Source: Patescibacteria group bacterium
GTDB taxonomy: Bacteria; Patescibacteriota; Minisyncoccia; Phycocordibacterales; UBA1006
Assembly: GCA_020428645.1 (NCBI GenBank)
Contig: JAGQMN010000005.1
Coordinates: 1 to 42,137 of the forward strand
DNA: 42,137 nucleotides
Direction of reading: 5' to 3'
The stretch's first letter is position 1. Each line of letters starts with the position of its first letter. The position numbers were made by a program, and so were the translations under genes. The notes beneath the pieces were generated by a model. It made no database searches. It was not told where the DNA came from and saw nothing but the letters and a program-made list of their open reading frames with translations. This document shows, in pieces, positions 6,582-29,783 of the stretch.

Positions 6582-6614
6582 AACAAAAATCACAGATAAA
6601 CTGTGATTTTTGTT
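6582..6614. terminator. Bidirectional hairpin terminator after tRNA-Thr / distal end of element A
   Basis: A perfect 14-bp stem (6582-6595 with 6601-6614, loop ATAAA), with the T-rich arm ATTTTTGTT on plus and a T-rich continuation on minus. It would end tRNA-Thr transcripts and also stop transcription coming from tRNA-Asp through element A. Confidence 0.75.
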
Positions 6615-6622
6615 CTTTGGGT

Positions 6623-6639
6623 GCGCCAGACGGGACTTG
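6623..6639 (-). repeat. Second copy of the tRNA-Asp 3' end (17 bp)
   Basis: Identical to 6823-6839 inside the intact tRNA-Asp, exactly 200 bp away. The copy covers the acceptor 3' strand and the T-arm up to the T-loop, then changes abruptly into GTCA. It lies between the element body and the outer terminator. Confidence 0.9.
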
Positions 6640-6821
6640 GTCAGGAGTCCTTATTTTTGTAAACAAAAATATAGGCTCACGACCCTGGCTCGCCCGTCTC
6701 GCTAATGCTCGACATGGCTCCGCCTTTCAAGATCCCGACGCAAGGCACGCAGGTGCCTTGCTCCAGGACGCGAAGTATTCATGAGAAAAGAACAGCACAA
6801 AACTGTTCTTTTCTCATGATG
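6639..6821 (-). other. tRNA-associated structured element A (next to tRNA-Asp)
   Basis: GC-rich relative to the genes around it. On the plus strand it begins GGTCA (6639-6643) and can fold as one long hairpin: GGTCA with CGACC (6680-6684), closing an 8-bp stem TATTTTTG/CAAAAATA (6652-6671). A second hairpin follows, stem CAAGGCA/TGCCTTG with loop CGCAGG (6741-6760), then a perfect 16-bp hairpin (6780-6818) beside the tRNA that may be its terminator. No convincing gene is present. Elements B, C and D share this plan. Whether it acts as RNA or as DNA is unknown. Confidence 0.7.
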
Positions 6822-6896
6822 CGCGCCAGACGGGACTTGAACCCGCAACCTCCCGCGTGACAGGCGGGTGCTCTAACCAAGTTGAGCTACCAGCGC
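6822..6896 (-). tRNA. tRNA-Asp(GTC)
   Basis: Acceptor GCGCTGG/CTGGCGC (two G:T pairs), D-arm GCTC..GAGC, anticodon stem CCCGC/GCGGG with loop CTGTCAC (anticodon GTC), T-arm GCGGG-TTCAAGT-CCCGT, discriminator G. CCA is not encoded. Confidence 0.94.
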
Positions 6897-7426: not shown

Positions 7427-7470
7427 TTTTACGAGTTTTTCTAAGTATGTCATATAAATATAATGAGTCA

Positions 7471-7510
7471 AACAACAACACACTAAGCAAAAGCTTAGTG
7501 TGTTGTTGTT
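7471..7510. terminator. Large perfect hairpin at the distal end of element B
   Basis: Perfect 18-bp stem (7471-7488 with 7493-7510) with loop AAAA. It occupies the position of an outer terminator, as the hairpins at 6582 and 29326 do for elements A and C. Confidence 0.7.
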
Positions 7511-7513
7511 TCG

Positions 7514-7533
7514 TGTTGCGGGGGCTCGATTCG
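7514..7533 (-). repeat. Second copy of the tRNA-fMet 3' end (20 bp)
   Basis: Identical to 7727-7746, which holds the last 18 bases of the intact tRNA-fMet plus 2 downstream bases, 213 bp away. After the T-loop bases ATTCG it switches to GTCA, as in elements A and C. Confidence 0.9.
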
Positions 7534-7726
7534 GTCACAAATAAATTTCCTGACGGAAATTTTTCGCGACCCCAGCTCGGTATGTTTGCCTTTCATCCGC
7601 CTTTCGCCGAATTCAAACAAACATATACCTGCGCTTTTCTCATCGAGTCGAAGCGTCCGCAGGGACGCTTCTCCTAACGAATACAATAATGAGAAAGCCA
7701 AGCGCGAGGCTTGGCTTTCTCATGAT
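7533..7726 (-). other. tRNA-associated structured element B (next to tRNA-fMet)
   Basis: Same plan as element A. On plus: GGTCA (7533-7537) pairs with CGACC (7567-7571), closing stem AAATTTCC/GGAAATTT (7543-7562, loop TGAC). Then comes a GC-rich stretch sharing CCGCCTTTC with element A, then hairpin GAAGCGTC/GACGCTTC with loop CGCAGG (7650-7671), then a perfect 15-bp hairpin (7689-7723) beside the tRNA. Elements A and B both end TTTCTCATGAT before the tRNA. Open frames across it (for example 7447-7677 plus) have no family resemblance and are taken as chance. Confidence 0.7.
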
Positions 7727-7728
7727 TG

Positions 7729-7799
7729 TTGCGGGGGCTCGATTCGAACGAGCGTCTTCAGGTTATGAGCCTGATGAGATACCATTACTCCACCCCGCT
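7729..7799 (-). tRNA. Initiator tRNA-fMet(CAT)
   Basis: Body resembles bacterial initiators: GCGGGGTGGAGTAATGG at the 5' side and CCCCGCAA at the 3' end. Position 1 is A facing A72, so the 1:72 pair is open as required for initiators, but A:A replaces the usual C:A. Anticodon stem TCAGG/CCTGA has only two of the three hallmark G:C pairs (29:41 is A:T). Loop CTCATAA, T-arm GCTCG-TTCGAAT-CGAGC. Confidence 0.9.
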
Positions 7800-29300: not shown

Positions 29301-29325
29301 GCTTTTGTTTTAACTTAATTTAAAC

Positions 29326-29359
29326 AAAAAAGTACTCGGATCACTCCGATACTTTTTTT
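29326..29359. terminator. Outer terminator of the tRNA-Ser locus
   Basis: A near-perfect hairpin, AAAAAAGTACTCGGA with TCCGATACTTTTTT (one bulged C), loop TCAC, with T-runs in both directions. It directly follows the second tRNA-Ser 3' end on the minus strand. Confidence 0.75.
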
Positions 29360-29360
29360 A

Positions 29361-29381
29361 ATGCGGAGAGTAAGGGATTCG
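29361..29381 (-). repeat. Second copy of the tRNA-Ser 3' end (21 bp)
   Basis: Identical to 29552-29572, which holds the last 18 bases of the intact tRNA-Ser plus 3 downstream bases, 191 bp away. After the T-loop bases ATTCG it turns into GTCA, as at 6639 and 7533. Confidence 0.9.
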
Positions 29382-29551
29382 GTCACCACGATGGGTCACG
29401 GCTCGAATCAAAGATTCACCTTTGACCTCATCGTCTCGACCCCGTCGTCGCCTACGGACTACGTCCGGCTCCGCAGGTGAATTTTTTCGAATCCCCCATC
29501 TCAGGTAAAACAATATCATCGCAATACATTCGTATTACGACAATTTGTTTT
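29381..29551 (-). other. tRNA-associated structured element C (3' side of tRNA-Ser)
   Basis: On plus: GGTCA (29381-29385) with CGACC (29437-29441) closes a long hairpin that continues as ACGATG/CATCGT (29388-29393 with 29429-29434) and GGTCA/TGACC (29394-29398 with 29423-29427). CGCAGG is at 29472-29477 but is not flanked by a perfect stem as in A, B and D; instead AGGTGAAT can pair with an upstream ATTCACCT. CGAATCCC further on is complementary to the duplicated tRNA end. A hairpin TAAAACAA/TTGTTTTA lies next to the tRNA. Confidence 0.65.
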
Positions 29552-29554
29552 ATG

Positions 29555-29641
29555 CGGAGAGTAAGGGATTCGAACCCTTGAAGGGCGTTAACCCTTACTT
29601 CGTTAGCAGTGAAGCGCTTTCGACCACTCAGCCAACTCTCC
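29555..29641 (-). tRNA. tRNA-Ser(GCT)
   Basis: A class II tRNA of 87 bases: acceptor GGAGAGT/ACTCTCC, D-arm GCTGAGTGG..., anticodon arm CTTCA/CGAAG with loop CTGCTAA (anticodon GCT), long variable arm (AAGGG..CCCTT), T-arm AAGGG-TTCGAAT-CCCTT, discriminator G. CCA is not encoded. Confidence 0.94.
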
Positions 29642-29765
29642 GTTATATATTTTTATTTCTGTGAAGAGTGGTCGAACGAGTTCGTCCGTTTTGGTCTGTT
29701 CGCACATGCTCACAACAACCAATCGCTTCGCGACCTCCTGAAATAGTACGCAGGTACTATTTCAG
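29642..29765 (-). other. tRNA-associated structured element D (5' side of tRNA-Ser)
   Basis: Carries the family motifs in the same order: on plus, GGTCG (29670-29674), CGACC (29731-29735) and a perfect hairpin CTGAAATAGTA/TACTATTTCAG with loop CGCAGG (29738-29765). GAAGAGT (29663-29669) can pair, with one G:T, with the acceptor 5' strand of the partial tRNA copy at 29777-29783, so D plus that copy could fold as a tRNA-like three-way junction. Confidence 0.6.
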
Positions 29766-29783
29766 CCACTCAGCCAACTCTCC
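29766..29783 (-). repeat. Second copy of the tRNA-Ser 5' end (18 bp)
   Basis: Identical to 29624-29641 in the intact tRNA, 142 bp away. It covers the acceptor 5' strand and the D-arm up to GAGTGG. The best promoter lies upstream of this copy, not of the intact tRNA. Confidence 0.9.

Follow-up and report, generated by a model that had tools for sequence, protein, structure and literature searches.

The stretch of DNA analysed here (the window; 42,137 nt of the Patescibacteria genome GCA_020428645.1, contig JAGQMN010000005.1, with the genome as a whole designated G000) carries small inserted units at the 3' ends of three transfer RNA (tRNA) genes, tRNA-Asp, tRNA-fMet and tRNA-Ser. Each of these genes is intact, and a second copy of its 3' end lies 200, 213 or 191 bp away, respectively (copy pairs 6623-6639/6823-6839, 7514-7533/7727-7746 and 29361-29381/29552-29572). 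In the corresponding units, which we call elements A, B and C, the point of insertion lies between tRNA nt 56 and 57, the host tRNA is restored, and the old tRNA 3' end has been displaced downstream along with the old terminator. The junction falls in the T-loop and reads GGTCA on the plus strand, which in tRNA sense is TGACC followed by nt 57. Read in tRNA sense, a locus generally consists of the intact tRNA, a hairpin (H1), a second hairpin with the loop CTGC (H2), a guide arm whose sequence complements the tRNA T-arm, a core that begins GAAAGGCGGAG and continues through helices P2 and P3 to TGACC, the second tRNA 3' end from nt 57, and the old terminator. The core of element C deviates from this layout and represents a second subfamily. 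A preliminary description of this DNA had reported the 3'-end copies with their lengths and spacings, the GGTCA junction, a set of body motifs, the old terminator outside each copy and a new hairpin beside the tRNA, and all of these are present in the sequence. Its order of motifs in the body needs amendment on two points: TTTCTCATGAT belongs to the variable H1 hairpin, outside the core, and CGCAGG, though present, is the loop of H2 and is missing in one subfamily. It had also overlooked a stretch of the body that is complementary to the tRNA 3' end.

Related genomes retain tRNA genes that lack the units. In G009, tRNA-Asp has an identical 3' part that runs directly into the terminator lying beyond element A in the window (6582-6614, shared with tRNA-Thr). 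The element is also absent at tRNA-Asp in G001, G002, G005, G006, G008, G010 and G011, while in G007 the same gene holds a unit with a different core, an independent insertion. At tRNA-fMet, the H1/H2 arm is common to G000 and G007 and the cores differ, with G005, G006, G009 and G010 empty; element C is absent from tRNA-Ser of G008, G005, G003 and G010. In a Lys(ctt)-Leu(tag) cluster, G009 carries a unit behind Lys and G000 one behind Leu, and each lacks a unit at the other gene. Mosaic units at Tyr and fMet in G000 and G007 show cores being swapped with the target arm left in place. The empty sites at orthologous tRNA-Asp and tRNA-Ser genes have the same terminator, and gain is the simpler reading of this pattern of occupied and empty sites. 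Genome comparison shows that a unit inserts between C56 and nt 57, restores the gene with its own copy of nt 57-73 and leaves a decaying scar.

The guide arm and the distal copy behave differently across the family. The distal copy is identical to its own tRNA end over all 16 bases compared in 45 loci and agrees with it at 13 or more of 16 in 65 loci, compared with at most 12 of 16 for copies from other isotypes, and it begins directly after TTC54-56 in 61 of the 65 well-preserved loci. The guide is complementary to nt 57-65 of its own tRNA at 7.74 of 9 positions (5.28 of 9 for other isotypes), and with the constant GAA after it is complementary to the empty target across the insertion point. 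At positions that differ between an intact tRNA and its displaced copy, the guide agrees with the tRNA in 86 cases, with the copy in 4 and with neither in 12. Since the guide follows the intact tRNA, it is inside the unit that pairing is maintained, and the distal copy decays as a scar. The arm is the Watson-Crick complement of nt 57-65, T-loop positions 57-60 included, and does not replicate the tRNA's 5' strand. The tRNA-derived RNA family considered in the preliminary description is therefore not upheld in that form, and we likewise rejected a tRNA-like structure formed by a second tRNA copy, an idea taken from Elusimicrobia examples, since the arm does not correspond to the tRNA's 49-53 strand.

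Identity of the two tRNA-end copies can extend beyond the tRNA, by up to 40 nt. Such identity would be expected if template switching during replication had duplicated the tRNA 3' end together with its terminator in a forward-inverted-forward arrangement. No dedicated enzyme would be needed, and the inverted arm would come from folding back at the terminator hairpin. The layout agrees with this account, since the tRNA 3' end occurs first forward with the terminator, then inverted, and then, beyond the core, forward again, as does a guide that tracks the intact tRNA, which quasi-palindrome correction would give. We nevertheless consider it unlikely as an explanation of the units, because it does not account for a conserved P2/P3 core common to Patescibacteria and Elusimicrobia, for the placement of H2 between the acceptor and T-stem complements, or for the constant insertion point. 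That the guide tracks its tRNA over time fits either selection acting on the fold or template switching at hairpins, and such switching could also be the source of a core's new target arm.

Copies of the elements, which number in the hundreds across Patescibacteria and Elusimicrobia, proved plentiful both in the window's own genome and in its relatives. R1, a covariance model built from six own-genome copies along the lines proposed in the preliminary description, found nine copies in G000 (E 3e-31 to 6e-7), adding sites at tRNA-Leu(caa) and tRNA-Phe; a DNA search of the same genome found further copies 3' of tRNA-Leu, Tyr (two in tandem), Glu, Val and Ala, as well as a partial copy at a contig end. 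At E <= 0.01, R1 matched 41 of 61 relatives (up to 23 copies per genome), nearly always directly 3' of a tRNA or transfer-messenger RNA (tmRNA) gene, a recurrence far in excess of chance. At the same threshold, 7 of 12 members of the genus and several near-complete genomes of the order had no match, an absence that doubles as a specificity control. Phylum-wide, with 11 candidates scored per genome, at least 27 of 287 evenly drawn genomes contained a match at E <= 1e-6, and the exact pattern occurred in at least 116 stretches of a named-genome collection, from Kaiser-, Nomura-, Taylor-, Zambryski-, Yonath-, Lloyd-, Wolfe- and Moranbacteria, among others, and also from Elusimicrobia, where all eight inspected copies sit after tRNAs. 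A tRNA lay within 400 bp upstream at 92 of 118 exact-pattern loci. Hosts included Val, Arg, Ser, Leu, Glu, Gly and other tRNAs as well as tmRNA genes; at loci L060, L061 and L069, tmRNA genes missed by ARAGORN were found by Rfam, each then followed by an element. Tandem copies and module swaps were observed among the elements. None of the Rfam 15 families reached its gathering score on the elements (weak matches were attributable to chance), and searches of the open-access literature found no paper describing the family, so that it seems to have no earlier name, in agreement with the preliminary description. That description's proposal of very small non-autonomous elements is well supported by the empty sites, the independent and reciprocal insertions, the patchy presence in the genus, the tandems and the module swaps.

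Contigs of G000 end in or near elements (C14 at L010, C13 at L012), and assemblies of this kind probably fragment at elements, so that copy numbers are probably underestimated. Repeats disturb assembly, and the contig ends might be taken to mean that the units themselves are assembly artefacts. Comparative data have already refuted this: many independent assemblies hold copies with differing sequences and compensatory changes, including the single-chromosome CP066682.1 and the 680-kb contig G045:C7.

The coordinates of the window loci are collected in Table 1. Element D, on the 5' side of tRNA-Ser, is related to the others and of a different type. It contains a copy of the tRNA-Ser 5' end (29766-29783), a hairpin with the loop CCTGCG and an inverted copy of the D-arm (29666-29676). 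It is present in G008 and G005 with compensatory hairpin changes and absent from G003, G002 and G010. Element D is older, and it may be the D-loop counterpart of the family. The preliminary description had placed four bodies in a single family; the fourth (29642-29765), with its 5'-end copy and no R1 match, has to be set apart.

Table 1 Elements, host tRNA genes and scars in the window (positions on the forward strand; R1, covariance model of the family).
Feature	Position	Strand	Basis and remarks
Intact tRNA-Asp(gtc)	6821..6896	-	ARAGORN, Rfam RF00005; nt 57-73 provided by element A
Element A, 200 bp unit, tRNA nt 57 to terminal GACC	6639..6838	-	Sequence, inverted repeats, R1; empty site in G009
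H1 of element A, 17-bp perfect hairpin adjoining tRNA	6779..6819	-	Inverted repeat I7
H2 of element A, CTGC loop (GCAG on plus)	6740..6761	-	Sequence; inverted repeat I13
Guide arm of A, GGGATCTTGAA in tRNA sense	6726..6736	-	Sequence; complements tRNA-Asp TTCAAGTCCC save one extra base
Core of A (GAAAGGCGGAG - P2 - P3 - TGACC)	6639..6728	-	Full R1 match 6626-6740, E 8.6e-28
Scar of A, displaced old tRNA-Asp 3' end	6623..6638	-	Sequence, repeats
Intact tRNA-fMet(cat), host of element B	7728..7799	-	ARAGORN
Element B, 213 bp unit	7533..7745	-	R1 match 7520-7650, E 1.6e-9
Scar of B, displaced old tRNA-fMet 3' end	7514..7532	-	Old terminator 7470-7511
Intact tRNA-Ser(gct), host of C (3' side) and D (5' side)	29554..29641	-	ARAGORN
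Element C, 191 bp unit, second core subfamily	29381..29571	-	Sequence, repeats; without R1 match
Scar of C, displaced old tRNA-Ser 3' end	29361..29380	-	Old terminator ~29325-29358
Element D, related but different type	29642..29783	-	Sequence, repeats

Folding and covariation show that the tRNA-sense strand forms a closed three-way junction in which the ends of the unit abut. In P1 the guide arm pairs with the tRNA 3' end; this helix is usually capped by H1 and often branched by H2. P2 and P3 are the other helices, and the unit's GACC end comes together with nt 57 where P3 adjoins P1. Among 77 aligned copies, standard pairs filled 93.3% of pairing cells and 26 of 28 pairs had changed on both sides. 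Compensated, double-sided changes numbered 404, against 111 in shuffled and at most 74 in slid controls, and the covariation score was 0.488, whereas shuffled controls gave 0.175 and slid ones no more than 0.09. Fitting of the alignment to the model favours the fold somewhat, but the margin is large. On the tRNA-sense strand, G.T pairs outnumbered A.C pairs by 168 to 25 (a near-invariant P3 pair contributes 69 of the G.T), an excess indicating that this strand is the folding one. Folding 45 units as circles gave a median z of -7.3, and 38 of them adopted the junction with pairing at both ends; with DNA parameters, z was about -7.2 for each of two sequences, a complete unit and a unit's 5' part.

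A strong hairpin separates tRNA and guide in 74 of 84 units, 30 of these with a T-run, which places many units behind a terminator. Since they often lie there, we infer that single-stranded DNA is at least as likely as RNA to be the folded molecule. A functional structured RNA, or a tRNA 3' accessory inherited with tRNA genes and spread by duplication and gene conversion, might also maintain such a fold. The strong conservation of the sense-strand fold is consistent with this, as are the occurrence in two phyla and the vertical inheritance of some units, for example those at Glu and Leu(caa) in G000 and G009, in which the guide changes along with the tRNA. Against it stand the terminators, the genus members that have no match, the presence of units at different tRNAs in close relatives, and the fact that pairing of guide and tRNA within one transcript would unfold the tRNA. 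This explanation appears improbable to us.

On balance, we favour the reading that these are gene-less, non-autonomous integrative elements of about 130-215 bp that reside in tRNA and tmRNA genes and are moved as a folded single strand. In the mechanism we propose, the folded single strand would be the moving form, and stacking of P3 on P1 would present the unit end as a duplex-like recombination site. An enzyme acting in trans would then exchange the folded strand into the tRNA T-loop, much as for integron attC or the folded attP of the CTX phage. The guide would be kept matched, or refitted to the adjacent tRNA, through selection or through hairpin-mediated (quasi-palindrome) template switching. 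A bolder version, which we consider less likely than not, would place the units in a category of their own among minimal mobile nucleic acids. Each would be a gene-less, closed three-way junction whose guide pairs with the tRNA target and is rewritten from whichever tRNA adjoins it, and the single strand would be moved by a general host activity, making it a guide-directed element that has no enzyme of its own.

Several results weigh against movement as a folded strand. Neither excised forms nor movement have been observed, and some single empty sites could reflect precise loss through slippage between direct repeats. The elements have no room for a gene, and the co-occurring recombinase envisaged in the preliminary description did not emerge: a search of five protein families and one proteome comparison yielded no enzyme that would mobilise them. 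Most element-rich genomes encode one tyrosine recombinase (PF00589), presumably their sole Xer, and G037, with three elements, encodes none. Reverse transcriptases (RVT_1) do not track the elements across genomes. Resolvase is absent in G000, G007, G009, G014, G057 and G059 and present in the element-free G003, G010 and G024, and the IS110 transposase occurs in only 3 of 61 genomes, one of them element-free. These distributions led us to reject tyrosine integrase, reverse transcription, Resolvase and IS110 as dedicated partners. The proteome comparison, of one G045 contig (C7) and G022 with one element-free genome (G006), gave 88 shared open reading frames, mostly housekeeping, and no clear candidate. 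No copy was found in the viral contigs, phages or plasmids searched; three 17-mer matches in viral contigs were not elements. We also observed a divergent reverse transcriptase domain at G000:C13:4952-5593, about 0.6 kb from the tRNA-Glu element of that genome, and an NYN-domain-like protein near the single Xer in G022 (C5:160985-161548) and G045 (C7:218099-218641) with no tblastn match in the element-free G006.

The distribution of RAYT-like Y1 proteins, present in 25 of 41 element-bearing and 0 of 20 element-free genomes, raises the alternative of REP-like elements moved by a RAYT (a Y1 HUH transposase), with the guide arm resembling the guide sequences of IS200/IS605. Single-strand hairpins are the usual RAYT substrate, and in both the REP/RAYT and the IS200/IS605 systems, gene-less palindromes are moved in trans as single strands, the target being partly read by internal pairing. 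The elements depart from these systems in their guide (9-16 nt as opposed to about 4) and their specificity for tRNA genes. The RAYT-like genes moreover have palindromes of their own, such as AAGGTTCAACCTT, at their borders, a confident R1 match occurs at only 1 of 42 Y1 loci, and the proteins are missing from the element-rich G014, G050, G057 and G022 and from the window's own genome. We therefore reject RAYT as the cognate enzyme and regard this alternative as very unlikely. At L144-L150 and L152, in relatives, Y1 transposases are bordered by short, host-varying palindromes of the type AAGGTTNAACCTT; the RAYT-like Y1 proteins of the order and these palindromes are a candidate Patescibacteria RAYT/REP pair.

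Two other parallels concern single features. The attP of the CTX phage is a folded single strand, recombined in a Xer-dependent manner, in which two inverted target copies lie about 100 nt apart; our elements similarly contain inverted target copies about 100 nt apart that fold into a putative recombination site, but their target is the T-loop and not dif, they carry no phage genes, and a role for Xer is putative. The arm of the elements also recalls self-splicing introns in tRNA genes, which contain a stretch complementary to their two flanks once these are joined, spanning the point of insertion. Unlike such introns, the elements have no Rfam match and their would-be 3' exon, the distal copy, decays; splicing is therefore not needed, and we rejected it.

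Islands and phages in tRNA and tmRNA genes use tyrosine integrases (Islander, PMC4383910; Ms6, PMC1762012), and our elements are like them in targeting the 3' part of the gene, restoring it, leaving a displaced 3' fragment at the far end and breaking in the T-loop. An intact tRNA with a displaced 3' fragment is a hallmark of integrase islands (PMC4383910) and the T-loop is a known place of crossover (PMC1762012), and tmRNA is targeted too; the elements might thus be minimal satellites of ordinary double-strand tyrosine integrases. Their core would then resemble attP and be mobilised in trans by the integrase of a phage or island, the fold serving binding or replication only. We judge this rather unlikely: a lone tyrosine recombinase is the rule in element-rich genomes, one core serves many unrelated tRNAs with the tRNA part changed, whereas an integrase island has one fixed tRNA end, and a covarying, G.T-biased single-strand fold would be superfluous for double-strand recombination. 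The elements also differ from integrase islands in their size (0.13-0.215 kb), in being gene-less with no co-occurring integrase, and in their internal target-complementary arm. Integron attC sites recombine as a single strand with a double strand (PMC4792948), and the elements resemble attC sites and cassettes in being short and sequence-variable, in having a conserved single-strand fold with strand bias, and in forming arrays. They differ in having no RYYYAAC/GTTRRRY boxes at their ends (the recombination point is TTC|GA or GACC|GA, and the T-loop GTTCRA has C where the attC box needs R), in forming a three-way junction instead of a hairpin, and in targeting the tRNA T-loop. No integron integrase gene was seen with the generic PF00589 model, which gave one protein per genome, presumably the only Xer.

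If our reading is true, these units would be among the smallest site-specific integrative elements in bacteria, and would live in organisms with very small genomes. One shared core would serve most tRNA species as well as tmRNA, with the site chosen by a self-complementary, target-tracking arm, a mode of choice for which tRNA-gene islands offer no described precedent. The elements would account for the odd repeats beside tRNA genes in many Patescibacteria genomes and for assemblies that break there, and the question would arise which host enzyme moves them. The R1 covariance model makes the family searchable at once.
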